DNA of 64,000 nt. Origin: Polytrichum commune (Eukaryota; Streptophyta; Polytrichopsida; Polytrichales; Polytrichaceae). The position numbers and the translations under genes are program-made. Below the pieces are notes generated by a model. That model worked only from the letters and a program-made list of their open reading frames with translations. It was not told the DNA's origin and did no database searches. The DNA lies in assembly GCA_950295325.1 (NCBI GenBank), contig OX485806.1:57283169-57347168 (forward strand), in the 5' to 3' direction. Shown here piece after piece: positions 672-63,385 of this stretch; the first letter of the stretch is position 1; the number at the start of each line of letters is the position of its first letter.

Positions 672-1221
672 TGTGGGAGCCCAAAAATGCACGGAAATCC
701 GGATTGGCTTCTGAACTGGATTAATACCTGTCTAATACCCTGAGATTGTTATTAAAGTAGGGTTTCCTAGGGTAGGTTAGTTGTTTTAGGAAATAAGGTT
801 CTAGGCATCCGCCTCACTCGTTAAAATAGTTAAAACGGATACTTTGGCCGGACCGGATATTAACCGGGTAAGACCGTTTAGGAACGGTCCGGTCCGGAGC
901 GTCCGGACCGTGAGACGGTTACAACGGACTCCGAACGGTTGCGGGGTGTGGGAGTCCAAAAATCCACGGAAGTCCGGATTGGCTTCCTAACCGGATTAAT
1001 ACCGGGATAATACCCTGAGGATGGTATTAAAGTAGGGTTTCCTAGGGTAGGATAGTTGTTTTAAGAAATAAGGTTCTAGGCAATCGCCTTACGCGTTAAA
1101 ATGGTTAAAACGGATACTTTGGCCATAACGGATATTAACCGGGGAAGACCGTTTAGGAACGGTCCGGTCCGGAGCGTCTGGACCGGGAGACGGTTACAAC
1201 GGATTCCGAACGGTTGCGGGG
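672..1221 (+). repeat. 275-bp tandem duplication of the A1 5' end
   Basis: The first 275 bases of the LTR occur twice in a row, 672-946 and 947-1221, each starting TGTGGGAG. A2 and A3 have a single copy. The two copies differ at several positions, so the duplication is not brand new. Only the second copy leads into the ORF region. Confidence 0.9.
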
Positions 1222-1442
1222 GAAGCGGTTACGGAACCAGACCCGTTAGAAGAGAGAGTACTTAAGGGAATTTTTCCTCTTCTCTGAGCCATTTGCGCGA
1301 ACGGCATTGTCGAGAGAATGAGTGGTGAGTTGTTTTTTCGAGTCACCAGCAGTTGGTTTGCTGGGATTCCGTAGTGGTTAGCAGGTAGAATTCCGGAGGA
1401 GAGAATCCGGGTATTGTTGAAGATTTGAGGTCGCGAAGCAAA

Positions 1443-2953
1443 ATGCCAGAAGCACAAGAGGAAGATGAGACGGAGCAGGTCCCGATCCCAGTGAAACTTG
1501 TATCGCCTGCCATCCCAAAGACATAATCCGAGTTAAAGGAGCTCATAGAGGACCTTAGCCGGATGGGTTGCGAGGGAGTACTCGCCAAGCCCTGGAATCT
1601 CCGGGCGGAGGCCACATTGCGTGAATTTCTATTCGAACAGAGGACTCGAGCGACACCGTGGTTCCAGAACCACCTCCCGCTTCGTCCCCTCCGAAAGTCC
1701 GGAAACCAGCCTCACCACCACCACGACAGCAAGCCAGAACCAGCCGGGAAGTTCCCTGGAGGGACATCAACTTATCGGCGTTTGATTTTCTGGAAGCCCC
1801 CTTCAAGCGCGTTCGGGAGGAATTGACAAAACTTCAGAACCAATATTTCCGGATGGAGCATATCACTCGCGGGGTGAATCGGGCCTTAGACAACTGTGGA
1901 CCCGGAAATATCCTCCGGGAATTGGCCAAGCGGACGGACCGGAAGCAGGTAGAGACCTTGGAGACGGAGAAGGCGCAGCTCGCAGCACAGGTGGCCGCTA
2001 TGACGCAGGAGCTCACCCAGAAGAGCGAGGAGATCCGGAAGTACCAGGCGGAACAAGCGATAGTCCTAAGTCGGGTCCAGGAATAAGTGGGCCATCCGGG
2101 AGAAGTCGTCAACAAGGCGCACCTCTATGACCAATTGATGGAGTCAGCGGATCCGTCTTCCGCCCGACAAACGCTCCAGATCCTGGTGAAGTACTCCCGC
2201 TCGATGAAGGATCTGCTCACGGAAATCCAGAAGGTTCTGCCTTCGAGTGGTACTCCCAGACCGGTGATCTATCCGGGTCCACCCGGATCTCCAACGGGCA
2301 CGCTGTATGAGGTTATAGGGGAGGTTGAACTAGTACTGGCCTCTCATGTGGGTGCGGGACCCAGGTAGCGAGCAGGAACTTCCAAGCCACCGGAATCCGG
2401 TAGATGTCCGGATCGGGAGAAGACTCTTGTCCTGGAATGGACCCGCTCATCCTAGGTTCGATGGAAGAGCACAGAGCGGTCAGCCAGATCCGGACAGGGG
2501 CAATCACCGAATCCGGATCGGGGCAGGGCATCAGAGCGGTCCAGAACACCGGAGAGGGCCAGAACTCCGAAAATGATGAAGACACTGGACCAGATGAAGA
2601 CTCCGGATAGGGGAAAGGCACCAATGTCACACGCCTCACCAGCTCCTACTCCAGATTGTATGATATTGGAGCAATGGGCGCCCCCACCCTCACACGCGAT
2701 GCCAGCAAAGGATCCCCGGACGTCTTAGGTTTCTTGTGGCCAAAACAGGGAACGGACCCCCGGGGGTGATGCTTCACCCATCCGGAGCTCCCAGAAGGAG
2801 AAGAAGGCTTCCGGAATAGCGTAGTCCGGATCGGGTGACGGACTGGGATAGGATCCGTCCGCGGCAGGCGATTCCGAGGATGAGATCGCCCCCTTCCCAA
2901 ACATGAGGAGGGTATTTACGAGCCTACAGGAACGGCGGTTCTTGACCCCCGGA
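1443..2953 (+). pseudogene. A-family LTR ORF in A1, 5' part, decayed
   Basis: The start ATG at 1443 opens with MPEAQEEDE, matching the intact protein of A2 (25783-27855, minus). The frame is broken early. About 160 codons of the N-terminal domain are missing near 1640, where FLFE jumps directly to the Thr/Pro-rich middle. The coiled-coil part is still readable at about 1800-2085 (NILRELAKRTDRK, then TQELTQKSEEIRKYQAEQA) and ends in a TAA where A2 continues. E1 then splits the C-terminal region. This copy cannot make the full protein. Confidence 0.85.
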
Positions 2954-3928
2954 TGTCGCGCACCTCTCCATGAGGAGTGCCCGAAACACCATGGGCACAA
3001 GGGGGACCCCGGAGTGACACCCGGGACTTGTGGCGCCGTTGGTGAGAGGGCCCAAGTGATCCTAGTGTGGGTGAGGGCCCCGGGCGTTGGGAACGCCTCC
3101 CACCCACAAAGACTAGGAGGCACAAGGGTAAGGCCATGAGCTATGCGTAGCTCATGGCGTGGTGATTCTAGAATGCTCAAGAACACCTCAATCGGAGGTG
3201 TGAGCTAGGAGTTATGGCCATTTGAGTGGGGCGCTGTCCCGGGACAGCGCCCTGGTGCAGCAGTGCCTGGGAGTGACTCCCGGGACTGCCAAGGTTCAAA
3301 GAGGCATAACGTCCTCATAACTTGCCCAAATGGGGCAAGTGAGGAGTCCATCGGCATCTACGTGAAACGTAGATGAAGATGGAGTGGTTTGTTGTTATGA
3401 TCAGACATCATACAAGGAAGTTATGATGGTATGAAGCTGCTGGGGGGTTCTAGGCCCAGCAGCTAAAGGAAAATGTCCACTTGGCCCCAACTCTTGGTAG
3501 AGAGACAAGAGGTTGGTTGACGGTGGGGTAGGGGCCCCGCGTGAAGTCCTAGAGGCTTATATGGGTGAGGTGGTGTGGCCTCACCCACCCGAGGCCGAAC
3601 GGCACGGCCTCCATGGGCATTGGCCCAATGTGAGGCCATAGTTGCCTAGTATGGTTCGGGTTGTTGTAGTGTTGCTCCGGCAACGCGATGATCAACATAG
3701 GATTGGACTTCCAGGGATGGAAGTCCACATTGGGGAAATGGGTTACCGATTAAGGGGTGAGTCCCGAAAGCAAAGTAGGAGGGTTGGTTCCCTCCTATGA
3801 ACTATTGGTCCGGGGTTAGAGGAGCTAACCATTAGCATGGCGGTATGCGAAGGGTTAGCCACTCGTAACCTTTGCTAGAATTGAAAATTGGCAAGATGGT
3901 CAAGGGGGGGCTAGCAAGGGTTGCAATA
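2954..3928 (+). repeat. E1 5' LTR
   Basis: Starts TGTCGCGCACC and ends GGTTGCAATA, where the final CA has become TA; the 3' LTR keeps CA. A TATA-like TTATATG lies at 3557-3563 and is conserved in E2 and E3. The LTR is unusually rich in perfect stem-loops, for example an 11-bp stem at 3133-3158, a 24-bp palindrome at 3229-3252, and 9- to 10-bp stems at 3355-3375, 3435-3464 and 3704-3727. Confidence 0.95.
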
Positions 3929-3930
3929 CT

Positions 3931-3942
3931 TGGTATCAGAGC
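3931..3942 (+). promoter_or_regulatory. E1 primer-binding site (initiator tRNA-Met)
   Basis: TGGTATCAGAGC lies two bases after the 5' LTR. This is the complement of the 3' end of plant initiator tRNA-Met, used by many plant Copia and Gypsy elements. It fixes the LTR boundary and the + orientation. Confidence 0.93.
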
Positions 3943-3979
3943 AGGGTTCCAATATTTGAGCTAGCACTTTGAGGTAGAC

Positions 3980-4835
3980 ATGGCTATCAAAAATGCGGGT
4001 TATGATGGTGAGCCCGGGGTTTCCAAAAGGTTGTGAGGCTCAAATTGGAACAAGGATCATGTGCAAGTGGATTTTGATCATACCATTGATTCTAATGACA
4101 ATGGTGGGCATGAGGGTGGATTTGGTGAGGAAAATGGAGGAGTGCTTTGAAAAGGCTCCCACAAACCTCGAAAAGTATTTGGGGGCTAGAATACCGAATG
4201 CACCCAAAACCTTGGAGGGCATTAATGTTGGATTGAAATTCCAATTCGAAATGCTTAGAAGGTGGTGATGTTGAAATGAACTTGGGGCACATGAGGCACG
4301 CGGGGTCTCTTAAGGCGTATACGTGCTAATTTCACACCCAAATGAATGGTACATCTAGGATGGACGAGCTTTCTAAGAAATGCATCGTTTTAGGTGGGTT
4401 TCAAAAGCGGGTGGTGAAAACCATGTTCAAGACCCCAAAGCTTCTTGAGGACGTTGTGCGAATCATAAAGATTTGAAGAGCATTGAAGCCGATGGTCCTA
4501 AGAAGAAGTTGGGCGGCACATCACCACAAAGTGGGTTTAGCCGAAAGAGGTCCCAAGGAAATGAGCGCAAGTAGTTTGGCCCATTATACCAAGGCAAATC
4601 ATGCTAGCTCGTGCCGCGGATGGAATGTGAGAAGGTGGCTTGGTGGTACCAAGCTAGATCATATTTGTGCCACGGACGGAGTGTTAAAAGTTGGCCTTGC
4701 GGACCAAGCCAAACTCATGGTGTTGTCGAGGACCAAATGTTAGACGATGGCTTTGTGGCCAAGGCTAGTAGCCTTAAGCCGAGGCCAAGTCTTTTGTATC
4801 TTGAGGCTCAAATGAATGGGAGAAATGTCTCATGG
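3980..4835 (+). pseudogene. E1 gag remnant
   Basis: Begins at an ATG 38 bases after the PBS (MAIKNAGYDGEPG) and hits a stop 18 codons later. Further gag-like pieces follow in other frames, for example the helical stretch with VRKMEECFEKAPTNLEKYLG near 4120 and the segment around 4360-4480. The same pieces appear in E2 (18444-19040). There is no recognisable intact CCHC zinc knuckle. Position between PBS and protease supports gag; the sequence alone would not be enough. Confidence 0.6.
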
Positions 4836-5215
4836 GTGACAAAGAGGCAAGCCATTTCTTCTTGAGCCCGAAACTCATAAGGGAGTTGGGGCTTGCCGAT
4901 TGATAGAGCAAGCAAGCCCACCAAGGTGCGGTTTGGAAAGGGCGAACCACATGAGACAAAGGAGGCCGCGATGCATGTAACCTTTCAATGTGGGACATTG
5001 GATTTTTGTCAAAATTTCACACCAAGTGAAATACATGAAATGCATGTCATTGTGAAGGCCGCCTTCTTTGAAACTCACATGATAGATGTGAGGTGCAAGC
5101 CGGTGTGCTTGCGGTGCATTATGATGTGTCATAATGGCAAAGAATTGAAGTTCAAATTAACAAAAACTCCTATGGTAGGAGGACCTAAGTTGAATTTGGT
5201 CTTAATGGACCGAAT
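4800..5215 (+). pseudogene. E1 aspartic protease region, active site lost
   Basis: The frame from about 4893 gives PIDRASKPTKVRFGKGEP, then CGTLDFCQNFTPSEIHE and VIVKAAFFETHMIDV, the layout of the second half of a chromovirus protease (substrate flap and the ILGxxFF-like strand). At the catalytic position the codons at 4838-4849 read GAC AAA GAG GCA (DKEA), where the family has D-T/S-G-A. E2 has the same DKEA at about 18312-18322. A protease without the DTG/DSG triplet should be dead. The frame is also shifted just downstream of the site. Confidence 0.7.
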
Positions 5216-5379
5216 GAAAAAAAAAAAAAAAAACATAATTGTTGTGGTTCAATTGGAGCAACTCCAAGGAACGTATGGGGAGGCGAGGAAAGATGGGCCT
5301 CCCCCAAACCACATTGGTGGGATGTTGGTGAGATACAAGGATGTATTCACCAATGTGTTGCCCAGAAAGTTACCGCCAA

Positions 5380-6620
5380 GGAATAAAAAAATAACTTTGC
5401 TCAACGAGATATTGAGTTCTTAAGGTATGTGGTGACAAAGGAAGTTGGTGGACGAACATGAAAAATGTCAAAGCAATCCAAAAGGAGAATTGGCCCTTCA
5501 TTCAACAAGGGCTTAGGTCATTTGTTGGCCTAGCCAACTACTACCACCACTTCATTCGAGAGTTTTTGAAGGTTGCTAGGACCTTAATCAACTTATTGAG
5601 GAAAATGGCTATCCCAAGAGTGGGATGAGCCTTGTCACCAAGCGTTTGGGGAGCTCAAGAGCAAGTTCTCTTCACAAGATGTGGTTAAGTTTCCGGATTT
5701 TAGTAAGCATTTTGAGGTGCACATGGAGGTGAAGGACTTTACCTTTGGCGGATGTTGATCCAAGATGGATGACCATTGCTTATGGGAGCATAAAGCTCCA
5801 TGGTTGTCGAACCTTGTCCGGCGTGTGTAAGAAATGGTTATCCCAAGAATGGGATGAGCCTTGCTACAAAGCCTTTGGGAAGCTTAAGACCAAGTTCTCT
5901 TCGCCGCCCGTGCTCAAGTTCGTGGAGTTGACAAACCTTTGAGGTGCATACGGGGGCAAGTGACTTTACCATTGGCGGATGTTAAGGCAAAATGAATGGC
6001 CATTGCATATAAGAGCATGAAGCTCGATGGTTGTTCGACCTTGTCCAACGTGTGCAAGAAATGGCTATCCCAAGAGTGGGATGAGCCTTGCCACCAAGTC
6101 TTTGAGGAGCTTAAGACGAAGTTCTCTTCGCCACCCGTGCTCAAGTTTTTGGAGTTTGACAAACCTTTTGAGGTGCATACGGGGGCGAGTGACTTTACCA
6201 TTGGTGGATGTTGATGCAAGATGGATGGCCATTACATATGAGAGCATGAAGCTTGATGGTTGTCCTACCTTGTCCGACTTGTGGAAGAAATAGCTATCCC
6301 AAGAGTGGGATGATGTTTGTCACGAGTCTTTGGGGAGCTTAAGACCAAGTTCTCTTCGCCGCCCGTGCTCAAGTTCATGGAGCTTGACAAACCTTTTAAG
6401 GTGCATACGGGGATGAATGACTTTGCCAATGGTGGATTATGTGTAAGATGGATGGCCATTGCATATGGGAGCATGAAGCTCGATGGTTGTCAAAGAAGAC
6501 AACCAACTCATGACAAAGAACTTCTTTGTCGTAGTGCATTGCTTGAAGATGTGGCGACACTATTTGGGGTCGCACAAAGCAAAGGTCTACATGGACAATG
6601 TGCCCTAAAAGAATTTTGAC
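5380..6620 (+). pseudogene. E1 RT remnant with tandemly repeated RNase H segment
   Basis: The protein reading passes from a pre-RT linker (NVLPRKLPPR, near 5355-5385) almost directly into the segment after the RT core, GLRSFVGLANYYHHF (near 5515-5560). The RT catalytic core is therefore missing. Next comes the start of RNase H, EWDEPC..AFGELKTKFSSPPVLKF..DKPFEVHT, repeated four times. The repeat anchor ATCCCAAGA(G/A)TGGGATGAG lies at 5611, 5840, 6067 and 6296, a 227- to 229-bp unit. The last copy runs on into THDKELLCRSALLEDV. Stops and frame changes are present throughout. Confidence 0.85.
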
Positions 6621-6839
6621 ATACAAGCGTAAGTGAGCGCCAAGTCATTGCGGTGGCATGATAGTTTGGCGCTTATGTAGGTGGATTTGATCCACAAACC
6701 GGACCGTGGAAATGTAGTGCCGGATGCGCGAAGTAGACCGGAAGAGTTCCAAGCAATGAGAACCATCCAAACCTTGTGGCTAATGTGTGCCGGCGAAGGA
6801 AACTTGTGATGCAAGATACGGGAGGGGTAAATTAACTAC

Positions 6840-7839
6840 CCCAAAGCACAAAAGCTTTTAGGTGAGCGTCGCAAGAGCACGGTGCTTAAAGAGGTTAAGT
6901 TGGTGGACGGATTGTTCAAGTGCAAGCAAAGTTGGGTGTATGTGCCACAAGGCAAATTGAGGCTATCGGTTTTGAAGGAGGAATATGATAGTCCTATTGC
7001 CGGCCATAGAGGAGAAAGAAAAAACCGCCATAGAATGGTGTCTTGGAGGTACCATTGGCAGTGCATAAAGGAAGATATAGCCCACTTTGTGAAGGCTTGA
7101 ATCAAATTGCCAAGTGAACCGAGCCTCTTACCAAAAGCAAGGCGGTTTCTTGCAACCGTTGCCTATCCCGTCGGCGCCATGGCATAGTATGTGCATGGAC
7201 TTGATCACAAGTTTGCCGAAGTCACATGGGTATGATGCCATCTTGTTGATGGTTGAGCGGTTTGCCAAGTTGGCACACATGGTGCCGATTGTGGGAACCG
7301 CAACCGCGTTGGAGACCGCATAGCCTTTTCTCAAAGGATGGTTGAGGCACCACGAGTTGCCAAGAGTGATTGTGTGGGATCAAGATCCAAAGTTCACAAG
7401 TGCATTTTCAATGCATTTCTCTAAGGAGGTCGGAATGAAACTAAGGTTTAGCACGGCCTTGCATTCCCAAATGGATGGGAAAGCGGAGTGTGTGAATGGG
7501 TTCTCGAAGCAATACTTGAGGAACTTCGTGGGGGCGGACCAAGGAGATTGGGCGGACTATGTGAGTCGAGCGGAGTGTAATTGCAATGTAGCCACGCACT
7601 TGGCTACCAAAAGGTGGTCTTTCGTGGTGGCTTATGGAGTGGATGCACTCCAACCTATTAACCTAGCTCTCGAGGGGGCACATTCAACACTAGAGTTCAA
7701 CCAAGATGGTGAGGACTTGGCCAAGGATGGTAAACAAGTCTTGGAGATGACCAAGTTGTTGGTGGAGAAAGCCCGAAGGTGCTACGGAGTGCAAGTCAAT
7801 GCCGGAAGACGCGAAGTGGAGTATGAGGTGGGCCAATAA
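6840..7839 (+). pseudogene. E1 integrase (zinc finger plus DDE core), disabled
   Basis: An H2C2-like zinc finger region lies at about 6980-7110 (AGHRGE, then YHWQCIKEDIAHFVKA) and is followed by a stop. The catalytic core contains SMCMDLITSLP (Asp codon 7198-7200), VIVWDQDPKFTSAF (Asp codon 7378-7380) and DGKAECVNG (Glu codon 7486-7488). The last two acidic residues are 35 residues apart, the classic DD35E spacing. Stops lie at 7098 and 7321, so the triad is not in one open frame. The order after RNase H is the Ty3/Gypsy order. Confidence 0.85.
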
Positions 7840-8099
7840 GGTGTTGTCGAATGTGGACAATTTCACCTTGCCCAAAGGCCTTACTCCAAAAGTTCATGTC
7901 CAAAATTGGAGCTTCGTTTTCCATTGTGGAACAAATGTTCAAGGACATGTATAAGTTAGAATTACCGCCGGAGATCAAAGTGCATCCGACATTTCATGTC
8001 TCATTACGAAAGTCATTTTAGGACGACACCTTGTGGCCCGAACACAAGCAAGTGATTAATTAGGCCACGTCCCGACCTTGTGGAGGTCATTTGGAACAT

Positions 8100-8262
8100 G
8101 AGGTAGGAGGGCATCCTCAAGTGTAGGAAGCCCAAATGAAAAGGAAAGAAAAATGTACAAAGGAGTACTTGGTGAAATGGTGAGGATACCATGAGAAAGA
8201 AACCGCTTGGGTGGCGGCAAGAGACATGGTGAACACCAATGAATTGGTGAAGAACTTTGAAT
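8100..8262 (+). pseudogene. E1 chromodomain-like integrase tail
   Basis: Downstream of the integrase the frame reads KEYLVKW, stop, GYHEKETAWVAARDM. This matches the EYLVKWxGYxxxxxTWE core of a chromodomain with one stop in place of a usual Arg/Lys. Chromodomains at this position define plant chromoviruses. A GPY/F-type module probably lies just upstream (near 7850-8000), but the frame is broken. Confidence 0.65.
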
Positions 8263-8339
8263 AAACTAAGGCTAAGGATTCCAATAAAATGAAGCGTAGG
8301 CATTGATGAGGACATCAATCTCCTTTAGTGGGGGAGAGA

Positions 8340-9108
8340 CGTTAGTAGCACACTTAACTTCGAGGTTAATTACTCCACAACATGAACTTGTTCTTTGGCT
8401 TGAGGGAATAAAGTCCAAACTTTAGTGGTGCAAAGAGAAAAGTATGAGATGAGTTCCTAGTCTTGTACTTGTGCTTGGTTAATGGAAGAGGGGGAATAGA
8501 TATGCCAAACTAGGTTGGGTAAGCCGAGTAATTGGGGGCCATGGCTTGGAGGGGCCTTGGATAAAACCAAGAAACTTCTTAGTTGTGGGCTTGTCCGGGC
8601 GGGGACAAGGTGATGGCGCGTGCTCATAAAAGTGCTACCCGCGAGCTAACGAAAGTTGGCGCATGGGAGTCATGAACCCATGTCTCGAAAGAGCAAAGTG
8701 GGAACCGAGTCGGGCGGGACTTGGCATCACCCCCGTGCGATCGAGGCGTGGCTTAACAATGGAAAGCCATCTCGGAGTTGCAACCGAGACAACTTAGTGG
8801 AAGCGTTGAGGTCTCGCCTAGATGTGTCATGTTAGGCTAGTGGAGCCTAACGGGGGAGGCCCCAAAGGAGGGGCAACCCAAGTGAGTCCCAAAGTAGGTG
8901 GGTCTAGTATAGGTTAGGTCCTTGGACAAGAGATCCAAGGTCGCTAACGGACCACCTAGGAACGACACCTTTGGGACTATGCCAAATTTGAAGATGCATT
9001 GTGGGGGTCGCGCCCTAAGGTAAACACAATGCCGCACCATAGAGGATGGCAACTTGAGAATTGGTGTGCCGACTACGAGTATAGTCGATGAGGGCATCGA
9101 CTCCGTTT
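8340..9108 (+). other. E1 3' untranslated region before the polypurine tract
   Basis: About 770 bp between the chromodomain region and the PPT with no credible ORF. The same sequence occurs in E2 in reverse orientation (about 14311-15080), so it belongs to the family. Confidence 0.7.
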
Positions 9109-9120
9109 GGTGGGGGTGAG
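9109..9120 (+). promoter_or_regulatory. E1 polypurine tract
   Basis: GGTGGGGGTGAG immediately precedes the 3' LTR and is the expected plus-strand primer. It contains two T interruptions. In E2 the corresponding stretch is deleted. Confidence 0.75.
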
Positions 9121-10095
9121 TGTCGCGCACCTCTCCATGAGGAGTGCCCGAAACACCATGGGCACAAGGGGGACCCCGGAGTGACACCCGGGACTTGTGG
9201 CGCCGTTGGTGAGAGGGCCCAAGTGATCCTAGTGTGGGTGAGGGCCCCGGGCGTTGGGAACGCCTCCCACCCACAAAGACTAGGAGGCACAAGGGTAAGG
9301 CCATGAGCTATGCGTAGCTCATGGCGTGGTGATTCTAGAATGCTCAAGAACACCTCAATCGGAGGTGTGAGCTAGGAGTTATGGCCATTTGAGTGGGGCG
9401 CTGTCCCGGGACAGCGCCCTGGTGCAGCAGTGCCTGGGAGTGACTCCCGGGACTGCCAAGGTTCAAAGAGGCATAACGTCCTCATAACTTGCCCAAATGG
9501 GGCAAGTGAGGAGTCCATCGGCATCTACGTGAAACGTAGATGAAGATGGAGTGGTTTGTTGTTATGATCAGACATCATACAAGGAAGTTATGATGGTATG
9601 AAGCTGCTGGGGGGTTCTAGGCCCAGCAGCTAAAGGAAAATGTCCACTTGGCCCCAACTCTTGGTAGAGAGACAAGAGGTTGGTTGACGGTGGGGTAGGG
9701 GCCCCGCGTGAAGTCCTAGAGGCTTATATGGGTGAGGTGGTGTGGCCTCACCCACCCGAGGCCGAACGGCACGGCCTCCATGGGCATTGGCCCAATGTGA
9801 GGCCATAGTTGCCTAGTATGGTTCGGGTTGTTGTAGTGTTGCTCCGGCAACGCGATGATCAACATAGGATTGGACTTCCAGGGATGGAAGTCCACATTGG
9901 GGAAATGGGTTACCGATTAAGGGGTGAGTCCCGAAAGCAAAGTAGGAGGGTTGGTTCCCTCCTATGAACTATTGGTCCGGGGTTAGAGGAGCTAACCATT
10001 AGCATGGCGGTATGCGAAGGGTTAGCCACTCGTAACCTTTGCTAGAATTGAAAATTGGCAAGATGGTCAAGGGGGGGCTAGCAAGGGTTGCAACA
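9121..10095 (+). repeat. E1 3' LTR
   Basis: 975 bp, TGTCGCGCACC to GGTTGCAACA, followed by target duplication CCGGA. Read side by side with the 5' LTR, I see no difference except the terminal CA versus TA. That implies a recent insertion or recent gene conversion. Confidence 0.95.
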
Positions 10096-10178
10096 CCGGA
10101 GGATGCTCCTCCGCCATCAGCAGGCCCGCAAGTCATTCCAAGGATGGGACGGCTTCGAAGAAGCATCGTACCACTTAG
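10096..10178 (+). pseudogene. A-family LTR ORF in A1, C-terminal end
   Basis: Resumes after E1 with the coding end of the A-family protein. The text around 10125-10178 corresponds to the final residues KKHRSS of A2, here ending KKHRTT-like and a TAG at 10176-10178. It confirms that E1 landed inside this ORF. Confidence 0.8.
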
Positions 10179-10410
10179 TTTAGACTTAAGCATGCGGCTA
10201 TAGGCAGATCAGAATTAGGTAGATCAGAATTAGGCATACAAGTTTTAGGATACTTTTGAGTTTTGGCAAACTGTAAATTCAAATTTTCTATCAGTGCAAA
10301 AAGCGGATCGAGATCCAGAAATTCTGCGAAGGATGTGTTTTCGAATTTCTCGCTGCGTGGGATTTTCTGGCGGCCAACTGGGCCGCCACCCGTAGTTAAG
10401 GATTACAATC

Positions 10411-10490
10411 TCTACTTAAGGCTGAATAAGGAGCTTGAGAAGGGTTCTCTTCTCCGATGTTGTATTTTGTCGCTCCCCACTCAATAAAAC
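10411..10490 (+). promoter_or_regulatory. A1 LTR promoter / polyA block
   Basis: A TATA-like TCTACTTAAGG at 10411-10421 is followed about 65 bases later by AATAAA at 10483-10488. The same pair lies in A2 (minus, 25571-25563 and 25500-25495) and partly in A3 (TATTTAAG at 62235-62242). A TATA box and polyA signal this close together are what an LTR U3-R border looks like. This places the ORF in U3. Confidence 0.6.
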
Positions 10491-10639
10491 TCTAGTTCTC
10501 AATCTATTTTTACTTGTTTTGTGATCAAACTGTTAGGAGAATGTTGGAGATCTAGAGGGAATGAATGAGTAGGAAGGACGGATAGGACAAAGGAGAGGAA
10601 ACCCAGATCGGATCCAATTGCAGTACTATGGACCCTTTC

Positions 10640-11200
10640 TGAGTGTACTGGGAAGGAAACCTCATAATTCCGGATGTCTGGGTAACGTCTACGTGAGATA
10701 GCTGTCGTTAGGACTGGGTAAGATTAAGGGGGTGCCGGACTTACGCCATCCGACCTTCTGAAGAGGTCTCACAGCCCCTGGGCGGGGCAATCCGGAAACT
10801 GGTACGGATCGCTCAGTTATCTCAGATTTAGTAGAGCCTAAGTTCATTGTATTCGGATCGGTCTGTCGGAAGGAGAGAAACCGGAGCGATTAGGATTCCG
10901 GTCCGGAGGTCATTTCCGGGGTGTAGTGGGAAGGAAACCTCATTATTCCAAATGCCTCGGTAATGTCCATGTGAGATAGCCGTCGTTAGGACTGGGTAAG
11001 ATCAGGGAGGTGCCGGACTTACGCCATCCGACCTTCTGAAGAGGTCTCACAGCCCATGGACGGGGCAATCCAGAAAGTGGCACGGATCACCCAGTTATCT
11101 CTGGATGAATCTTGACGTTTCTGTCGTTGTAGTTCCGGGGAACCATCCGGATTCTCTGTGTGACCTGCCAGGAAAGATTAGGCCGATCCGGACTGGTTGT
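10640..11200 (+). repeat. A1 U5 tandem repeat, about 280-bp unit
   Basis: Two diverged copies start at GTACTGGGAAGGAAACCTCA (10645) and GTAGTGGGAAGGAAACCTCA (10923), 278 bp apart. Both continue through GTGAGATAGC, GCCGGACTTACGCCATCCGA and TGAAGAGGTCTCACAG. A2 and A3 carry the same doubling. Confidence 0.9.
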
Positions 11201-11549
11201 GATAGAAATCCGGATTTTGACCATACAGGGACGTCTTCACCGGATGAACCAAATCATCATTGGAGGTAGGATATAGATAGGTATGTATTGAGGAAAGAGG
11301 CACGTAGGAGTAAGACGTAGTTATAGAGGTTCAATCCGGAAAGCAAGTCCCGGAACAAGGACTTCCAAGGGACCATCCGGATCCTCAAAGCCGATCCGGC
11401 CGGTGGTCGATTTTTCAAGCAGGAAGAGAAGGTCCTTGACATCCTACAGTTCACAGAATCCTTGGACGATACTCGGATCATCCGGACAAACCGGATTAAG
11501 CATTGAAAAACACCTATCCGGAAACTTTTGGTGTTCGTGTGCTCCCACA

Positions 11550-23492: not shown

Positions 23493-24330
23493 TCAAAGGA
23501 AACAACAGATTGGATAGACATGAGTATGTATCAGGATGAGAAAATGCATTGCACCTCTAATTGTTCCCGACTTAAAGAAACCTTGAATGAAGAATTGTTT
23601 TAGTGTGTCATCATTGAGCATAGTGCCCACCAATCGTGTACACACTAAATCAAACCTCCTAATGTAAGCCGAGATCTTTTCTTCCCTTCCTTGCTTCAAT
23701 GAAGCCAATGCCCTCAAAGCCGTGCTTTGGCCGACCTCCGGCCTAAACTCATTCAACCCCCGCTTCTTGGAAGGTCTTCAGGAATAGCCGGATGAAATCC
23801 ACCCAGTCATCCCTGGTCTCGTCTGGGACATCTTGGTACCATTTCAATGCCTCCCCTTTTAACAGTCCTTGGAAGATCCGGCCCTTGGCATCCGCATCCT
23901 CTTCGTTGGCGGTGGCAATGGACTCGAACTCACAATACCAGTCATCCACATCCTGACTTCCGTCTCCTCGGAATCGACTATACTTGAGTCGAGTTGCTGG
24001 GGCCATCCGGGCGGCGGGAATCCCCTCCTCTTCAGACTCCGCTCCCGTCCCCCTTGATCCGTCTGGAGTGGAAAATCCGGAGAATCCGGCGGGATTCGGA
24101 CTGGGTGGGGCGGACTCGTCCAAGGATAATACTATAACATCCCCTTCCTCTCTCGAGGTGGTCCGGGCCCTTCGGTCCGAGTTGGTGTCGGGTAAGGTGG
24201 GCGTTATCAACCCTCCTCTTAGATTTTCGAGCCGGGCGGATCTCCAGGGCGCTGTACCAAACGTCTGGGATCTGCTCATCCCAGCGAGAGACACATTGCA
24301 GAACGGAATCCACCTTGCGACAGTGTGCAT
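23493..24330 (-). pseudogene. gag of the A2 retrotransposon, one frameshift
   Basis: The reading frame is open from just downstream of the PBS; candidate starts are ATG at 24330 (MHTVARWIP) or 24279 (MSRSQTFG). A disordered Ser/Pro/acidic region is followed by a Retrotrans_gag-type domain: LKYSRFRGDGSQDVDDWYCE, GLLKGEALKWYQDVPDE, WVDFIRLFLKTFQEAG. The frame ends at 23749, but continues one base over as NEFRPEVGQSTALRALASLK and ISAYIRRFDLV down to 23493. The shift lies in a run of five C (G on the coding strand) at 23757-23761; four would keep one frame. Nothing of pol follows, so the element is truncated at about 23.45 kb. Confidence 0.85.
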
Positions 24331-24371
24331 CAGCAGGTCCAAAGCGTCTCCTCCCCCCTACAGCTTTAGAA

Positions 24372-24389
24372 TCCCCGGCAGCGGCGCCA
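24372..24389 (-). promoter_or_regulatory. A2 primer-binding site (tRNA-Asp)
   Basis: Minus-strand text TGGCGCCGCTGCCGGGGA, six bases after the LTR end. It differs at one base from the complement of the plant cytosolic tRNA-Asp 3' end as I remember it. This PBS is typical of Athila/Tat elements. Confidence 0.88.
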
Positions 24390-24899
24390 AAAACGTGTGG
24401 GGACACGCGAACACCAAAATGTCCGGATTGGCGGTTTTAAGTGCCTAATCCGGGTTGTCCGGATGACCCTAGTATCGTCCAGGGATTCTGTGAAGTGTAG
24501 GAGGTCTAAAACTCTCCGTACCTGCTTATTTCTTCTTCCTTAGCCAAATTTCCGGAAATCCTAATTTCCGGATATTTGGTCTTTGGGGACATTCTTAGCC
24601 TTTTTTTTCGGAGGGTACCTCTCCGGATGTTATTTCTAGGTCCTCTTTATAATACTTACCCACCCCTTTACGTCTACGCTCTAGAATAATTGGTTTCTTC
24701 CGGTGAAGACGTCCTTGATAAGGTTAGAATCCGGGAACTCCCTCACAACCAATCCGGATTGATCAGGTCCGTCCTGGCAGGTCACGCAGAGAGATCTGGA
24801 TTGTTTCTTGGGACCATAGTGGCCAGAGGAGTCCGGATTCCAACCGGAGATCTAACTCGACGGGATGAGTAGGTGACCCGTACCACTTTCCGGATTACC

Positions 24900-25440
24900 C
24901 CGTCCAAAGACTGTGAGACCTCTTCAGAAGGTCGGATGGCGTAAGTCCGGCACCTTCCGGATCTTGCCCAGTCCTAACGACGGCTATCTCACATGGACGT
25001 TACCCAGGCATTCGGAACAATGAGGATCTCTTCCTACTGCACTCCGGAGGTGGCCTCCTATCGGAATCCTTACTGATCCGGACCTCTCCTTCTCCGTCCG
25101 ACGGATCTGTCCGGCTACCTTTACCTTGGATTCTACTCAATCTGAGATAACTAGGCGATCCGTACCACTAATCCGGGCAGGTCCGTCTAAGGACGGTGGG
25201 ACCTCTTCAGAAGATCAGATTGGCGTAAGTCCGGATTCCTTCCGGATCTCACCCAATCTTTCCAGCGGCTATCCCACCTAGACGTTACCCAACCTACCGG
25301 ATTAGTGAGGTTTCCCTCCCACTACACTCAGAGAGGATCTACAAGGCGGTAACCGGATTTGATCCGGGTCTCCTCTCTCATGTCCTATCCGGAACTCCTA
25401 TCCCTCATGCCCTCCCTTTCTCTTCCACTAACGATCTCCG
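24900..25440 (-). repeat. A2 U5 tandem repeat, about 280-bp unit
   Basis: Two copies with anchors near 25045 and 25325. Each contains ACTTACGC(C/A)A and the GTCTCACAG-like, GATAGCC and CCTCA segments seen in A1 and A3, read on the minus strand. More diverged than in A3. Confidence 0.8.
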
Positions 25441-25494
25441 GGTCATTCATACACACATCAATCAAGAGAAGTCAAGGGGTGAGAAGCAAAGCCA

Positions 25495-25571
25495 TTTATT
25501 CAGGGTAGGAATAACCACAATACAACAATGGAGAAGGAACCCCCCTCAAGCTCCTTATTCAGCCTTAAGTA
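25495..25571 (-). promoter_or_regulatory. A2 LTR TATA-like box and polyA signal
   Basis: TACTTAAGG at 25571-25563 and AATAAA at 25500-25495 on the minus strand. They lie downstream of the ORF and upstream of the PBS, where an LTR promoter and polyadenylation signal belong. Confidence 0.6.
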
Positions 25572-25782
25572 GAGGCTCAAAAATCCCTAAACTGAGGGCG
25601 GCGGCCCAAACGGCCGCCGCTCAAGAAAACCCTAACTACCCCCGGTCTCCCGGATTTCTCGGATCCAGATCCGGGTTTTCCGCTGACACTACCAAAGGAA
25701 AATTTTATTAATCGTCTTCAAAAACTCCTAAGTCCTACCTGCCTACCTCCCTTCTGCCTAACCAATCTAGCCACTCCCCTAA

Positions 25783-27855
25783 TTAAGAAGACCGGTGCTT
25801 CTTCGGAGCCGATCCCTCCTTTGAGTGACTCCCTAATCCGCTGACGGCGGATGAGCCCCCGGCCGGCGACGCCTTCTGCAGCCGCGTGAGCATCCTCCTC
25901 ATGTTCGGAGACGGAGCAACCTCGTCCTCCGAATCCGCTGCCCTCTCGGTCCGTGGGGTAGCGGTCCCTGGTGTCCCGGAGACTGTCCCTGGGGTTCCGG
26001 AAGCTGTCCCCATCCGGATGCTTCGGACTGGAGAAGGATCGCTTCCGGTGCCCTGCTCCGGATTCCGTCCACCCGAGAGTGAAGCCGTCCGCGGATCCCT
26101 GTTGGAGGCCGCTCTCAAGTGTGGCGGAGGAAATGGACTCACCACTTGGCAATCCCGTGGAGACGATGGCGAGGCGTGGGTCATAGGAGCCTTGCCCCTA
26201 CTCGGAGTGGCCTCCCGATCGGAAGTCTGGTGCCGGATCGGCGTCCGAGCCCTATCCGGAGTCCGGGACCTATCCGAGTTCCGCGGAACAGGGGACTGGC
26301 CCCTTCCGGATCGGACCGACCCGGTGCTCTTCCGCCTCACCTGGGGAGAACGGACCCTTTCCGGAGCCCCTCCGGAATTACCAGGCCGAGAGCCGCCTCC
26401 TTGCTGGCTGGGTCCTGCAGAGGCCGGCGGATTCTGAACCAGGGCTACTTCACCAACCACCTCGTAGAGGGTTCCGGTTGGTGACCCTGGCGGACCCGGA
26501 TAGAGCACCCTCCGCGGTGTTCCGCTTGGCGGGACCACCCTCTGGATTTCCGCCAGGAGATCCTTCATCGTCCGTGAATACTTCACGAGGATGGGGAGGG
26601 TCTGCCTGGCGGAAGCCGGTTCTCCGGACTCCATCATCCGGTCGTAGAGATGTGCCTTGTTCACGATCTCCGCCGGATGACCCACCAGCTCCCGGATCCG
26701 GCTGAAGAGCACTGCCTGCTCCGCATGGTACTTCCGGATCTCCTCACTCTTCTGACTCAGCTCCTGGGTCATAGCTGCTACCTGTGCGGTGAGGTGGGCG
26801 TTCTCCGTCTTGGCTTGCTCCAGCTCCTTCCGGTCCGCCCTCTTTGCCAATTCCCGGAGAATGTTTCCGGGTCCGCAGTCGTCCAGAGCATGGTTCGCCC
26901 CCTTGACGATGTGCTCCAGTCGGTAATACTGGGTCTTGAGGTCCTCCATCCCCTCCTGGAACCGCTTGAATGGATTCTCCGGGAAGTCCCAAGCGGATAG
27001 GTCCACATTTCGCCATGGGGTCTCCCGGCTGGGTCCGGCTTCCGGATGTTGGTGCGGGGGAGGGGGAGAGAGTGGCCTCGAGACGGTTGGTGGCGGGCTT
27101 CCGGGTGACGAGGGAGGTGCTTCCGGAAGAATAGGGTCGCTGGAGGTCTCCGTCTCGACGTCTCCGGCTTCCGGGAGCAGCTTGTAGGTGACCTCATCCG
27201 CCGCTATTGTGAGCAGGTCCTCCTCCTCTGCCGTGATGCAGTCGAAATGCTGGTAGAGGTGCAAAATGAAGGGGGAGAGGAAGGAGGGTTTCCGGCCAAT
27301 ATGGGGGAGGGCCCGTCCGACTATCTCCTGGATGATCAGGCCCCAATTCACCGGCCGGACTCCGGACATTGCACCAAACAGCGTGTTAACCATGGTGAGG
27401 CTAATCCGCTTCGGCTTGTCCGGATTGAGAATGGGCAGGAGAAACTCTAGCACTCTCCACTCCCTAATATTCCGGCAGTTCCCTGGGTGAAACCCGTCCT
27501 TTGGATCCGCGTCCCCTCTGAACTTCCCGGCGAACAGGCCGTCGCGGCGGCCGGCCCACCCCTCCGTGATTCCCCTGGGAAACCCGTAGACCCTGTTCCA
27601 CGTATCCGGAGTCCAATGTTCTGGATCCCTCCTCTTTGTGCCTAGCCACTGATTTCCCCTCTCGAATTTAAACTCGCGGAGGGTATCTTCCGCTCTGAGA
27701 TTCCAGGGTTTGGAGAGCAATCCCGCACAACCCATGACCCTGAGATCCTCCGCGAGCTCCTGCAGCTCTCTATCCTCCCTCGGAATTGCAGGGGTGAGGG
27801 CTTTCAGCGGAATCGGGATGGGTTCCCGCTGATCCTCTTCCCGTGCTTCCGGCAT
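25783..27855 (-). CDS. 690-aa protein encoded inside the A2 LTR
   Basis: Intact ORF from ATG at 27855 to a stop at 25783. Residues 1-230 form a probable folded domain. The stretch around 150-205 (SLTMVNTLFGAMSGVRPVNW, then IIQEIVGRALPHIGRKP and SPFILHLYQHFDCI) resembles the 'putative plant transposon protein' domain of Athila/Tat-type accessory ORFs, as I recall it; this is an inference. Residues 241-280 are Pro/Ser-rich. Residues about 333-390 form a strong coiled coil (NILRELAKRADRKELEQAKT, AAMTQELSQKSEEIRKYHAE). From about 445 the chain is basic, Ser/Pro/Arg-rich and likely disordered. No membrane segment, protease or nucleic-acid polymerase motif is seen. It is transcribed in the same sense as gag and has its own TATTTAAG box upstream. 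Homologous ORFs in A1 and A3 are broken. Function unknown. Confidence 0.85.
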   Translation of the reverse strand: MPEAREEDQREPIPIPLKALTPAIPREDRELQELAEDLRVMGCAGLLSKPWNLRAEDTLREFKFERGNQWLGTKRRDPEHWTPDTWNRVYGFPRGITEGWAGRRDGLFAGKFRGDADPKDGFHPGNCRNIREWRVLEFLLPILNPDKPKRISLTMVNTLFGAMSGVRPVNWGLIIQEIVGRALPHIGRKPSFLSPFILHLYQHFDCITAEEEDLLTIAADEVTYKLLPEAGDVETETSSDPILPEAPPSSPGSPPPTVSRPLSPPPPHQHPEAGPSRETPWRNVDLSAWDFPENPFKRFQEGMEDLKTQYYRLEHIVKGANHALDDCGPGNILRELAKRADRKELEQAKTENAHLTAQVAAMTQELSQKSEEIRKYHAEQAVLFSRIRELVGHPAEIVNKAHLYDRMMESGEPASARQTLPILVKYSRTMKDLLAEIQRVVPPSGTPRRVLYPGPPGSPTGTLYEVVGEVALVQNPPASAGPSQQGGGSRPGNSGGAPERVRSPQVRRKSTGSVRSGRGQSPVPRNSDRSRTPDRARTPIRHQTSDREATPSRGKAPMTHASPSSPRDCQVVSPFPPPHLRAASNRDPRTASLSGGRNPEQGTGSDPSPVRSIRMGTASGTPGTVSGTPGTATPRTERAADSEDEVAPSPNMRRMLTRLQKASPAGGSSAVSGLGSHSKEGSAPKKHRSS

Positions 27856-28085
27856 TTTCCTCTCCTCTCACCCTTTCTGGCTTGCAACCTCTCTCTCTCT
27901 CTTCCGGAGTCCTTCTCTTCCGTCTAAGTGCCACAAAGTCCCGGCAAGCCCACTGCCGGTGACTGAAAAGTGCTGAGTCCCAGCAATCCAACTGCTGGCG
28001 GCTCGAAAGAAGGAACACCTCACCACTCGTTCTCTCAACAGGTTGCCTTTTTCCAGAAAAGAGTGGGAGGGAGAAGGAAGGGACC

Positions 28086-28093
28086 CTTAAATA
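28086..28093 (-). promoter_or_regulatory. TATA box upstream of the A2 LTR ORF
   Basis: TATTTAAG on the minus strand, about 230 bp upstream of the ATG. A1 and A3 have TACTTAAGGGA at the matching place (about 1259 and 59760). It suggests the LTR ORF has its own promoter, separate from the genomic LTR promoter. Confidence 0.5.
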
Positions 28094-28522
28094 TCCTTCC
28101 TCCCTCTTCCTTCCCCTGTTACTGTTCGGTTTAACGGAAAACGGTTACCAACCGTTTTCCGGCGGTTCCCACCAACGGTTTTACTAACATTTTCACCAAC
28201 GGCTCTCTTTTCCCCCAACCGCCATAAGGCCCGTTGTAACCGCCACTTCCGGGCCGTTGGGTAATCTTGGCGCGTCCGTCACTTGGTCCGGACCAAGGGT
28301 TTGGACCATGATTACATGGTCCGCCCATCCTATTTGACGGACTGGTCATAGTACTTATTTAAAGTCGTTTTACCGCACAAGGCGGGGCTAGACTACTCTA
28401 TTTCCTAGTACCATTAATTTTGTCCTAATAGACCCTATTATCCTCAGATAAGCAAGGTAAAATACGGAAATTGAATCCGTATTTACGTATTTCCGTCTTT
28501 CCGTCGAATTTGGACTCCCACA

Positions 28523-30654: not shown

Positions 30655-30655
30655 A

Positions 30656-59415: not shown

Positions 59416-59639
59416 TGTGGGAGCCCAAAAATCCACGGAAGACCGGATTGGCTTCCTAACCAGATTAATATCCGGATAATACCCTGGTATTGGTCTCAAA
59501 GTAGGGTTTCCTAGGGTAGGTTAGTTGTTTTATGAAATAAGGTTCTAAGCATCCGCCTTACGCGCTAAAATGGTTAGAACGGACCCTTTGGATGGACCGG
59601 AACTTAATTCGGGGAGACTGTTTTTAAACGGTCTTGTCC

Positions 59640-59735
59640 GGAAAACGGTTACACCGGAATCCAAACGGTTACACCGGAACCCGAACGGTTGCAACGGAAT
59701 CTAAACGGTTGCGGAAGAAACGGTTATGGACCCAG
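59640..59735 (+). promoter_or_regulatory. AACGGTT motif array in A3 LTR
   Basis: Five AACGGTT heptamers within about 90 bp (AAAACGGTTACACCGGAA, AAACGGTTACACCGGAA, GAACGGTTGCAACGGAA, AAACGGTTGCGG, AAACGGTTATGG), about 210-300 bp upstream of the ATG. AACGG is the core of plant MSA elements bound by MYB3R proteins. A1 and A2 have similar but fewer copies (A1 about 1190-1240; A2 minus strand about 28185-28135). Confidence 0.6.
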
Positions 59736-59942
59736 ACCCGTTAGAAGAAGAGGGGAGAATACTTAAGGGAAATTTTCTCCTTCTCCGAGCCATTTGCGCG
59801 AGCGGCATTGTTGAGAGAACGAGTGGTGAGCTATTTTTTGAGTCACCAATAGTTGGTTTGCTGGGATTCCTTAGTGGTTAGCGGATAGAATTCCGGAAGG
59901 AAGAAGCCGGGGATTGTTAAAGGATTGAGGGTGCGAAGCAAA

Positions 59943-61994
59943 ATGCCAGAAGCGCGAAGAAGATGAGAGGGAGCAGGTCCCGATTCCCGTGAAACCGGTA
60001 TCGCCGGCCACTCCGAAGAGAGATTCCAAGCTGAAGGAGCTCATAGAGGACCTTAGTCGGATGGGTTGCGAGGGATTACTCGCCAAACCCTGGAATCTCC
60101 GGGCGGAGGCCACATTGCAGGAATTCCTGTTTGAGAGAGGCAATCAGTGGATTCGGACAATGAGGCAGGAGCTGGAGAAATGGACGTCGGAGGTCTGGGC
60201 TGGGGTTTACGGATTTCCGAAAGGAAAGGGTGAGGGCTGGGCTAGCCGCCGGGATAGTTCTAAGGTAGGGAAATTCCAACCGGACCCGGATCCGAAGGAC
60301 AGATTCCATCCCGGGAATTTCCGGAACCTTAGAGAGAGGAAAGTCATAGAATTCATTCTCCCCATCCTTAGTTCGGAAAAACCCAAGCGGCACAACATTA
60401 CCATGGCCAACACCATGTTGGGGGCCATGTCCGGAGTCCGGCCTGTAAATTGGGGTTGATTAATTCATGAGTATGTGGAAAAATTCATCCCCCACATTGG
60501 CCGGAAACCCTTTTTTCTTTCCCCTTACATCCTCCACCTCTACCAGCACCACGGCTGCATCAACGAAGAGGGGGAGGACATGCTGACAATAGCGGAAAAT
60601 GAGGTGGTGTACAAGATCGGTCCGGAAGTCGAAGTTGCGGAGACCAGAGCAGAGGACTCAAGCGACACAGCGGTTCGGAACCACCTCCGGTTTCGTCTCC
60701 TCCGAAGGTTCGGAAACCCGCCTCGCCATCGCCCCGACAGGAAGCAGGACTCAGCCGGGAAATTCCCTGGAAGGACATCGACCTCTCCACCTTTGAGTTT
60801 CCGGAAGCCCCCTTTAAGCGCATCCGGGATGAGTTGACGGAGCTCTAGAACCAGTACTTCCGGATGGAGCACATCACCCGGGGAGTGAACAGGGCCCTAG
60901 GCAATTGTGGACCCGGAAATATCCTCCGGGAGTTGGCTAAGCGAACGAACCGGAAATAGGTGGAGACCCTGGAGACGGAGAAGGCACAGCTGGCGGCACA
61001 GGTGGCCGCTATGACCCGGGAGCTCGCCCAGAAGAGCGAAGAAATTCGGAAGTACCAGGCGGAACAAGCTGTGGTTCTGAGTCGGGTCCGGGAGTTGGTG
61101 GGCCATCCGGGAGAGATCGTCAACAAGGCACACCTCTACGACCAGCTGATGGAGTCAGCGGATCAGTCTTCCACCCAGAAAACGCTCCCAATCCTGGTAA
61201 AGTACTCTCGCTCGATGAAGGATCTGCTCAAGGAGATCCAGAAGCTGCTGCCAGGTGGTACCCCCAGGCGGATGCTCTATTCGGGTCCACCCGGATCTCC
61301 GACGGGCATTCTGTACGAGGTTATTGGGGAAGTGGAACTGGTTCCGGCCTCACAGGCGGGTGCGGGGCCCAGTCAGCCAGCCGGAACTTCCCAGCCACCG
61401 GAATCCGGAAGAGTTCCGGATCGAGAGAAGACCCCTGTTCCGAAACGGCCCCGCTCATCCCTAGTTCGACGGAAGAGTACATAACAGTCAGCCAGGTCCG
61501 GACGGGGACAATCACCGAATCCGGGTCAGGGTAGGGCGTCAGGGCGGTACCGAACGCCAGAGAGGGCTAGAACACCGGAAAGGATGAGGACGCCGGATCG
61601 GACGAAGACTCCGGATTCGGTGATTGTCCCGAATTCCCGTCCCATCCGGACGAAGACTCCGGATTCGGTGATTCGCCCGTTCCTGCTCTTGACTGCATGA
61701 TAATGGAGCCGTGGGCTCCTCCACCCTCACATGCGATGTCCGCCAGGGATCCACCGGAAGGAGAAGAATGTTTCCGGTGCAACGCGATCCGGATCAGGTG
61801 ACGGATCGGGAGAGGATCCGGCCGCGGCAGACGATTCCAAAGAAGAGGTCGCCCCCTCCCCTAACATGAGGAGGGTATTTACGAGGCTGCAGGAGCGACG
61901 ACTTTTGACCCCCAGGGGAGGCTCTTTCGCCATCAGCAGGCCCGCGAGTCAAACCAAGGAAGGGACGGCTTCGAAGAAGCACCGCACCACTTAG
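59943..61994 (+). pseudogene. A-family LTR ORF in A3, multiple lesions
   Basis: Start ATG at 59943 (MPEARR), then a frameshift within 20 codons. The main N-terminal domain is open from 59989 (LIEDLSRMGCEGLLAKPWNL) to a TGA at 60457 just after GVRPVNWG. It continues with FIPHIGRKPFFLSPYILHLY, shifts frame near 60690, and has a TAG at 60846 and a TAG at 60957 before the coiled coil (TRELAQKSEEIRKYQAEQA). Frame shifts continue in the basic C-terminal part to the TAG at 61992. All domains of the A2 protein are present, but the gene is dead. Confidence 0.88.
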
Positions 61995-62234
61995 ATTAAG
62001 CTTAGGCATATTAACATTAGGCAGATAAGGAGTAGGTAGTTCAGAATTAGGTAGGTAGAGTTAGGAAATCTTCTTTTTGGGTTTTGACAAAACTGTAAAT
62101 TCAAATTTTTGTCAGCGCAAAAAGCGGATCGAGATCCAGAAATTCTATGAAGGACGCGTTTCCGGATTTCTCGCCGCTTGGGGTTTTCTGGGCGGCTGCC
62201 TGGGCCGCCACCAGTAGTTAGGGATTGTGGCCTC

Positions 62235-62320
62235 TATTTAAGGTTGAATAAGGAGTTTGAGAAGGGTTCTCTTCTCCGATGTTGTATGTTGTTGTTCCCT
62301 ACTCCATAAAGCTCTAGTTC
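62235..62320 (+). promoter_or_regulatory. A3 LTR TATA box / polyA position
   Basis: TATTTAAG at 62235-62242 lies in the sequence matching the A1 and A2 promoter block. The polyA hexamer of A1 (AATAAA) reads CATAAA here (about 62306). Confidence 0.55.
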
Positions 62321-62459
62321 TCCATCTATTCTGACTTGTTTTGTGCACGGACTGTTAGGAGAATGTTGCAGATCTAAAGGGAATGAATGAATAGGAAGTA
62401 CGGATAGGACAAAGGAGAGGAAACCCGGATCGGATCCGACTACAATACTATGGATCTTT

Positions 62460-63010: not shown

Positions 63011-63385
63011 GAAAGATTAGGCCGATCTGGACTGGTTGTGAGAGAAATACGGATTCTGATCATATAGGGACGTCTTCACCGGATGAACCCAATCATCAAT
63101 GGAGGTAGGAAGTAGGTAGGTAGGTATTGAGGAAACATGCATGTAGGAGTAAGACTAAATATAGAGGTTCATTCCGGAAGGCAAGTCCCGGAATAAGGAC
63201 TTCCAAAGGACTATCCGGATCCGGAAAGCCAACCCGGCCGGTGGTCGATTTTCAAGCAGGAAAAGTGTATCCCTGACATCCTGCACTTCACATAATCCCT
63301 GGACGATACTCGGATCATCCGGACAGACCGGATTAGGCATTGAAAAACGCCTATCCGGAACTTTTGGTGTTCGTGTGCTCCCACA

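Follow-up and report, generated by a model that had tools for sequence, protein, structure and literature searches.

A Ty3/gypsy-order retrotransposon family in Polytrichum commune with a long, apparently selected open reading frame inside its long terminal repeats

What is a 690-codon open reading frame (ORF) doing inside a long terminal repeat (LTR)? LTRs are usually taken to be regulatory DNA, and a solo LTR to be a scar. The question is raised by a stretch of 64,000 nucleotides from Polytrichum commune (GenBank assembly GCA_950295325.1, contig OX485806.1, positions 57,283,169 to 57,347,168 of the forward strand; hereafter the window), in which an LTR of about 4 kb, designated A2, encloses such a frame in the same sense as an adjoining gag. 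We favor, with a probability of roughly 0.7, the explanation that A2 belongs to a family of LTR retrotransposons of Ty3/gypsy order that carries a complete accessory gene in the U3 part of its LTRs, because a TATA-like core precedes the ORF, the frame is under purifying selection, it occurs in 5', 3' and solo LTRs, and a second core lies downstream of it.

An initial annotation of the window had read A2 as the 5' LTR of an element from its TG..CA ends, an adjacent primer binding site (PBS) and a gag gene, and all three were borne out, with the unit bounded by TGTGGGAGTCC ... GTGTCCCCACA being the repeat that recurs in the host genome (Table 1). The PBS, TGGCGCCGCTGCCGGGGA, has a single match in the window at up to 3 mismatches, relative to a shuffle mean of 0.04; it is presumably of the tRNA-Asp type, as labeled in the initial annotation. 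The gag fragment (24357-23749, minus strand) matched PF03732 with an E-value of 9.4e-5 and 23.0 bits, relative to a cut-off of 24.1. The homology of A2 to other long gag copies ends near 23753, such that gag is truncated there and the 23493-23753 stretch, initially included in the annotated range, falls outside the matched element. We searched the host genome assembly (408 Mb, 64 contigs) and found 12 matches to the PBS-gag stretch, eight of which (A2, L030, L031, L032, L033, L034, L035, and L037) directly abut an A2-type LTR end. The join beside A2 is therefore real, and a chance join of the LTR to an unrelated PBS, considered beforehand as an outcome that would undo the interpretation, is excluded. 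The PBS junction of A2 was also seen at L031, with a diverged version at L033. Nor does the unit look like a DNA transposon, as the 690-codon ORF has no transposase match and a PBS and gag adjoin the same ends. A scan of 24000-28700 against Rfam gave three matches, all under gathering scores and taken as chance.

The ORF recurs in the host genome, together with the whole LTR. Scoring 64 matches of 1404 first-look candidates, which makes the count a lower bound, we found at least 64 copies of the ORF protein at 94-100% amino-acid identity, and 42 of these 64 best-scoring copies have no internal stop. Twenty of the 64 were fetched with their flanks. In all 20, the whole 4.1-kb unit was matched, beyond the ORF alone (in L009, from unit position 19, and in L025, with the unit split by an insertion), and in 16 a perfect 5-bp duplication lies directly outside TGTGGG and CCCACA. 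As for the other four, the duplication of L024 has one mismatch, the flanks of L017 share nothing, L020 carries a PBS remnant, and the mis-anchored L009 was left unjudged. No gag adjoins the unit in any of the 20, and in L023 the non-gag tail of the query has a match, which lies upstream of the unit at a distance of over 3 kb. The fetched ORF-bearing units are solo LTRs that retain the gene, as had been anticipated for a frame that sits within each LTR. In L020 (oriented positions 7809-7824), the LTR runs into 16 nt of the PBS region, beyond which lies unrelated DNA, with no target duplication.

Loci with gag or integrase show the ORF in LTRs of either end, at different loci. It lies in the LTR upstream of gag in A2 and, by matching coordinates of the ORF matches, in L030 and L037, the copy in L037 having two stops; further, the 3' end of the ORF was found in the gag-adjoining LTR of L031 and L034. 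In the stretch of L032 that was read, the ORF gave no match; L035 is ambiguous, and L033 is without the ORF. For the opposite end of the element, the family integrase was represented by nine copies at at least 82% identity among 114 scored of 3084 candidates, and the stretches behind four of them (L043, L044, L045, and L046) were fetched, all of which match the integrase tail of L041. In L043, L044, and L045, a purine tract, GGGAGTGGGGTAA or GGAAGTGGGGTAA, is followed by the LTR start TGTGGGAG; L046 is an A3-like divergent copy, in which the exact TGTGGGAG is absent and the LTR match comes further on. Protein sequence of the ORF was recognized in the 3' LTR regions of L043 (97% over 66 residues), L044 (88% over 60), and L046 (64% over 110), and the 3' LTR of L045 was matched to position 693, just beyond the ORF start, with no protein match. 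No 3' LTR was seen for L030 in the 4.9-kb stretch just past its integrase match, which ends at residue 199. Judged from these reads, the ORF is present in 3' as well as 5' LTRs, the two being seen at different loci. The alternative that the ORF lies outside the LTR repeat is excluded by the unit being the repeat in all 20 fetched copies and by the ORF sequence in 3' LTR regions. The family shows TG..CA repeats, a PBS after the 5' LTR, a purine tract before the 3' LTR, and a short target duplication, as an LTR retrotransposon does. A roughly 1-kb insert, whole or in part, was also seen within or near gag in L030, L032, L034, L036, and L039, in varied places and both orientations.

One full-length element, of about 8.3 kb, was read across L033 and L041, with 21 bp between both loci unread. 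It encodes gag, RVT_1, RT_RNaseH, rve, and Integrase_H2C2 between two LTRs, in the Ty3/gypsy order of reverse transcriptase (RT)-RNaseH before integrase, and it is flanked on both sides by a perfect target duplication, ATTGT. Its LTRs, 1028 and 1335 bp long, show 15 differences over 1028 aligned sites; position 165 runs into position 2957, and the ORF is absent from both. Loss of the ORF is the simpler reading, given that A1 and A3 (two older copies in the window), A2, and relatives elsewhere have it. The element inserted without the ORF in cis, which is consistent with provision in trans. The RT frame of the element is no longer intact. Separately, other gypsy families in the host genome (about 44-51% integrase identity) may be active, and frames open over about 2000 codons occur in many of their rows.

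The ORF was confirmed as intact, with 690 codons, at 27855-25783 on the minus strand. In its protein, as in the full-length relatives that were read, some 235 N-terminal residues are followed by a coiled coil in the middle and by a basic tail rich in Pro and Ser, such that the coiled coil and basic tail already proposed in the initial annotation are common to them. Scoring 8000 candidates yielded 51 relatives, seven of which, of 680-705 residues, share 53-91% identity across 95-100% of the ORF. A further 32 were contributed by a profile search, among 37 listed proteins that share 27-86% identity with the first sequence of the profile, P0051; some came from contigs of up to 803 kb. None of the relatives found by scoring or by profile search bears an informative name. 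Searches of Pfam with the ORF, 12 aligned relatives, and eight distant relatives gave weak matches only, mostly to coiled-coil models; PDB offered nothing convincing for the ORF protein (best E-value 0.91), nor did a second PDB search, and the N-terminal region matched nothing in either library. No relative was confirmed in prokaryote and virus contigs. The ORF as a passenger gained once by A2 was ruled out, as the older A1 and A3 copies and an A3-like group have it.

Selection on the frame was assessed through the ratio of nonsynonymous (dN) to synonymous (dS) divergence, and the initially suggested check that this ratio be below 1 was borne out in several comparisons. The 20 fetched copies gave dN/dS of 0.05-0.39 against A2, the ratio of nonsynonymous to synonymous proportions (pN/pS) pooled over all their pairs was 0.17, and, among A2 and the 20 copies, singleton differences numbered 133 synonymous and 104 nonsynonymous, with 37 and 13, respectively, for shared differences. 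Three comparisons are independent of choice by protein score: A2 with L025b, with A3, and with A1. L025b, a neighboring copy in L025, differs from A2 over 312 codons by 73.5 synonymous and 16.5 nonsynonymous changes (pN/pS 0.07) and has no stop in these codons. For the A1 and A3 pieces, dN was 0.25-0.31, lowest in the coiled-coil part and highest in the tail, and dS was 1.33-1.59 in three of the pieces, the fourth being saturated. Purifying selection on the ORF is thus seen where the copies compared were taken irrespective of protein score. In the older A3-like group, stops occur in 28 of 32 rows (63-78% identity to P0018; 81 scored, 834 candidates); old ORF copies decay, and lineages still copying do not. 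Singleton differences among A2 and 19 LTR units (L028 excluded) number 306; C>T or G>A changes make up 192 of these, with 78 falling at CpG, as deamination of methylated cytosine would produce.

Where within the LTR does the gene sit? Aligning the LTR heads and tails of A1, A2, A3, and L028 for conserved cores revealed a TATA-like core (P1) about 230 bases ahead of the ORF in A2, which is followed by a conserved stretch with a hairpin-like motif, CCAGCAGTTGG.TTGCTGGGA, that is altered in A3. A second core (P2), of the pattern CTCTACTTAAGGCTGAATAAGGAGCTTGAG..GGGTTC(T)CTTCTCC..TGTTGTATT, lies downstream of the ORF, and its 3' part also occurs in the ORF-less LTR of L041. As an ORF-less LTR keeps that part, P2 is likely the promoter of the genomic RNA, and an ORF with its own core P1 would be a gene inside U3. 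The initial placement of the ORF in U3 is thereby supported, with P2 downstream common to the ORF-bearing LTRs and its 3' part to an ORF-less one. In the mechanism we propose, the ORF would be transcribed from its own promoter, ending at its own poly(A) site in A2-type copies, and the genomic RNA would initiate at P2. Both LTRs would then receive the gene through reverse transcription, and a stand-alone copy of it would remain once recombination had deleted the interior of the element. As for the protein, we tentatively suggest, at somewhat less than even odds, a multimeric nuclear factor that may act in trans on the LTRs or RNA of the family, most likely to counter silencing or to drive transcription, and that would be supplied largely by dispersed solo LTRs.

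Several points weigh against this reading. The promoters and poly(A) sites are putative assignments from sequence, and the AATAAA past the ORF stop (25704..25709) is absent from A1 and A3; likewise, the putative nuclear or silencing role is read from the composition of the protein. The ORF-less L033-L041 element, with its broken RT frame, may be a decayed oddity. Regarding selection, the 20 copies were picked on protein similarity, which biases dN downward, and the skew is weaker among singletons than among shared changes, as drift of new copies would produce. With 10 gap positions, L025b may have a broken frame of its own, and dS between A2 and A1 or A3 is near saturation. Finally, the short gag-adjacent pieces of L031 (3 synonymous, 1 nonsynonymous), L030 (4 and 0), L037 (2 and 2), and L034 (17.5 and 8.5, with a stop) either agree with purifying selection or are too small to tell, and L032 has no match.

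Could the ORF instead be a neutral passenger, maintained by recent copying alone? The youth of the best-scoring copies and the stops throughout most of the A3-like group are what such a passenger would leave, but the constraint seen in comparisons independent of protein score and the seven near-full-length relatives make this very improbable. A different placement is harder to dismiss, albeit unlikely. If the genomic RNA started at P1, the ORF would lie in R rather than U3, and a very long R or leader would have it as first cistron; in rice, an R of 2023 bp has been proposed for Retrosat2 (PMC3485330). This notion is favored by the conservation of P1 in four copies and by the two AATAAA motifs after the ORF in A2. 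The ORF-less LTR of a mobile element, however, retains the 3' part of P2 and not P1, which argues against this placement. For the function of the protein, a competitor to a regulator is a structural partner of Gag, such as an RNA chaperone or an accessory of the capsid. A coiled coil and a basic tail would suit such a partner, as would an element-encoded frame in sense orientation, yet zinc-knuckle-like motifs are already present in the gag frames of L033, the promoter-like core of the ORF suggests expression separate from gag, and no gag-like Pfam match was found in the ORF. A Gag partner seems rather unlikely.

The remaining alternative concerns how the solo units arose. They are young, since 14 of 20 (A2 and 19 others) lie within 1.0% of their nearest neighbor in the set. 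The last 75 bp of the LTR in A2 and 19 units fall into two U5 end types, and 12 share a type that is not that of A2; the gag-adjacent U5 ends available (A2 in full, with short stretches of L031 and L033) do not show this newer type, the L031 stretch being too short for certainty. L009 and L023 mix both end types, as if the end had been exchanged. The 4.1-kb unit might therefore be imagined to move alone, as a TG..CA-bounded gene cassette mobilized in trans, without LTR-LTR recombination. Such movement would account for the lack of gag beside any of the 20 fetched copies despite their youth, for the 12 gag matches and nine close integrase copies relative to at least 64 ORF copies, and for the U5 end unlike that of A2. 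Yet perfect 5-bp duplications and TG..CA ends are ordinary features of solo LTRs, and L020, with its newer U5 end and 16 nt of PBS region, indicates that complete elements of the newer type existed. We know of no mechanism by which solo units would move alone, and we count this against the idea, which we regard as doubtful. In addition, the ratio of solo to complete elements is said to rise with LTR length, with the moss Physcomitrella named as high, in the part of one report that we consulted (PMC7251063). Fast formation of solo LTRs through recombination between 4-kb LTRs is the ordinary account of young solo units alongside few gag and integrase copies. It is similarly improbable that solo LTRs are the main working form of the family, that is, selected, self-contained genes spread in trans by scarce gag-pol partners.

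The other copies in the window are older. A1 and A3 share about 70% DNA identity with A2, and each holds a decayed copy of the 690-codon ORF. The flanks of A3 form a 5-bp duplication with one mismatch, and no target duplication was seen at the ends of A1. The A1 LTR has its first 275 bp doubled in tandem (672-1221), each copy beginning TGTGGGAG. The element nested in A1 has two 976-bp repeats that are 99.9% identical and is therefore a recent insertion, and an inverted relative of it lies at about 13620-20059. Beside A1, positions 1-745 contain four direct repeats at 149-bp spacing. Near the gag break, an ORF at 22714-23445 (minus strand) encodes an NLI-interacting-factor-like phosphatase domain (PF03031, E-value 2.6e-10). 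A 683-residue open frame at 30635-32686 (plus strand) looks like part of a repeat family, with DNA about 65% similar adjoining the L020 LTR; we presume that it may be a Mutator-like element.

Table 1. Features of the A2 element and related copies, in window coordinates
Feature	Position	Strand	Basis and remarks
A2, 5' LTR, 4127 bp, TGTGGG..CCCACA	24396..28522	-	unit recurs in 20/20 genomic copies fetched
P1, TATA-like core TATTTAAGGG, upstream of ORF	28084..28096	-	kept in A1, A2, A3, and L028 as TA(T/C)TTAAGGG; putative function
Hairpin-like CCAGCAGTTGGATTGCTGGGA, presumed 5' untranslated region	27978..27998	-	few changes in A1, A2, and L028, more in A3; from sequence
ORF, 690 codons + stop, LTR positions 668-2740, same sense as gag	25783..27855	-	open frame
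AATAAA past ORF stop, candidate poly(A) signal of ORF mRNA	25704..25709	-	sequence; kept in L028
P2, ACTTAAGGCTGAATAAGGAG..GGGTTCCTTCTCC, presumed genomic-RNA promoter/start region	25530..25574	-	conserved in A1, A2, A3, and L028; putative function
Second AATAAA, candidate poly(A) signal of genomic RNA	25495..25500	-	sequence; also in L028; AATAAA nearby in A1
Two direct repeats of ~180 bp, 3' part of A2 LTR	24864..25329	-	also in A1 and A3
PBS TGGCGCCGCTGCCGGGGA	24372..24389	-	six bases past A2 LTR end
gag, 5' part, truncated at ~23753	23753..24357	-	PF03732 just below cut-off; 12 DNA matches in genome
A3, older solo LTR, decayed ORF at 59947-61991	59416..63385	+	TG..CA; flanks GTTAA/TTTAA
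A1, older LTR, head duplicated (starts 672 and 947), decayed ORF 1443-2932	672..11549	+	nested element 2954-10096 interrupts

One of the closest parallels is viral. In mouse mammary tumor virus (MMTV), according to the part of the source consulted, the accessory protein Sag, a betaretroviral superantigen, is encoded inside an LTR of about 1.3 kb, and so is carried twice, and its transcripts start in the 5' LTR or env and use a splice acceptor that precedes the ORF in the 3' LTR (PMC3026287). The arrangement of an accessory ORF wholly inside the LTR is thus shared, whereas the LTR here is 4.1 kb long and has a promoter-like core within it, ahead of the ORF. The Sag family was absent among the Pfam and PDB library matches of the ORF, a result of library searches rather than of direct alignment of the proteins. 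Among plants, Grande, RIRE2, Retand, and the env-like Athila/Bagy2 also have conserved additional ORFs of unknown role, but these are described in the sections consulted as internal, mostly between pol and the 3' LTR, and a phrase search of the same review for an ORF within an LTR returned nothing (PMC7264820). Retrosat2 and FRetro3 of rice resemble the present family in their long LTRs (more than 3.2 kb) and an extra ORF0, which, compared by description in the part of the source available, lies upstream of the gag-pol ORF, is limited to grasses, and is not described as an LTR gene (PMC3485330). At the level of titles and abstracts in the open literature, we found no described plant LTR with a long selected ORF and its own promoter-like core, which is not proof of absence.

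For an LTR that holds a whole selected gene, losing the interior of the element leaves the gene in place, and insertions together with leftover single LTRs spread copies of the ORF through the genome. Solo LTRs could then stay sources of an element protein that acts in trans on remaining or related elements, which would change how solo-LTR counts are interpreted. The family may thus offer a testable case of a retrotransposon that disperses its own helper or anti-silencing gene.

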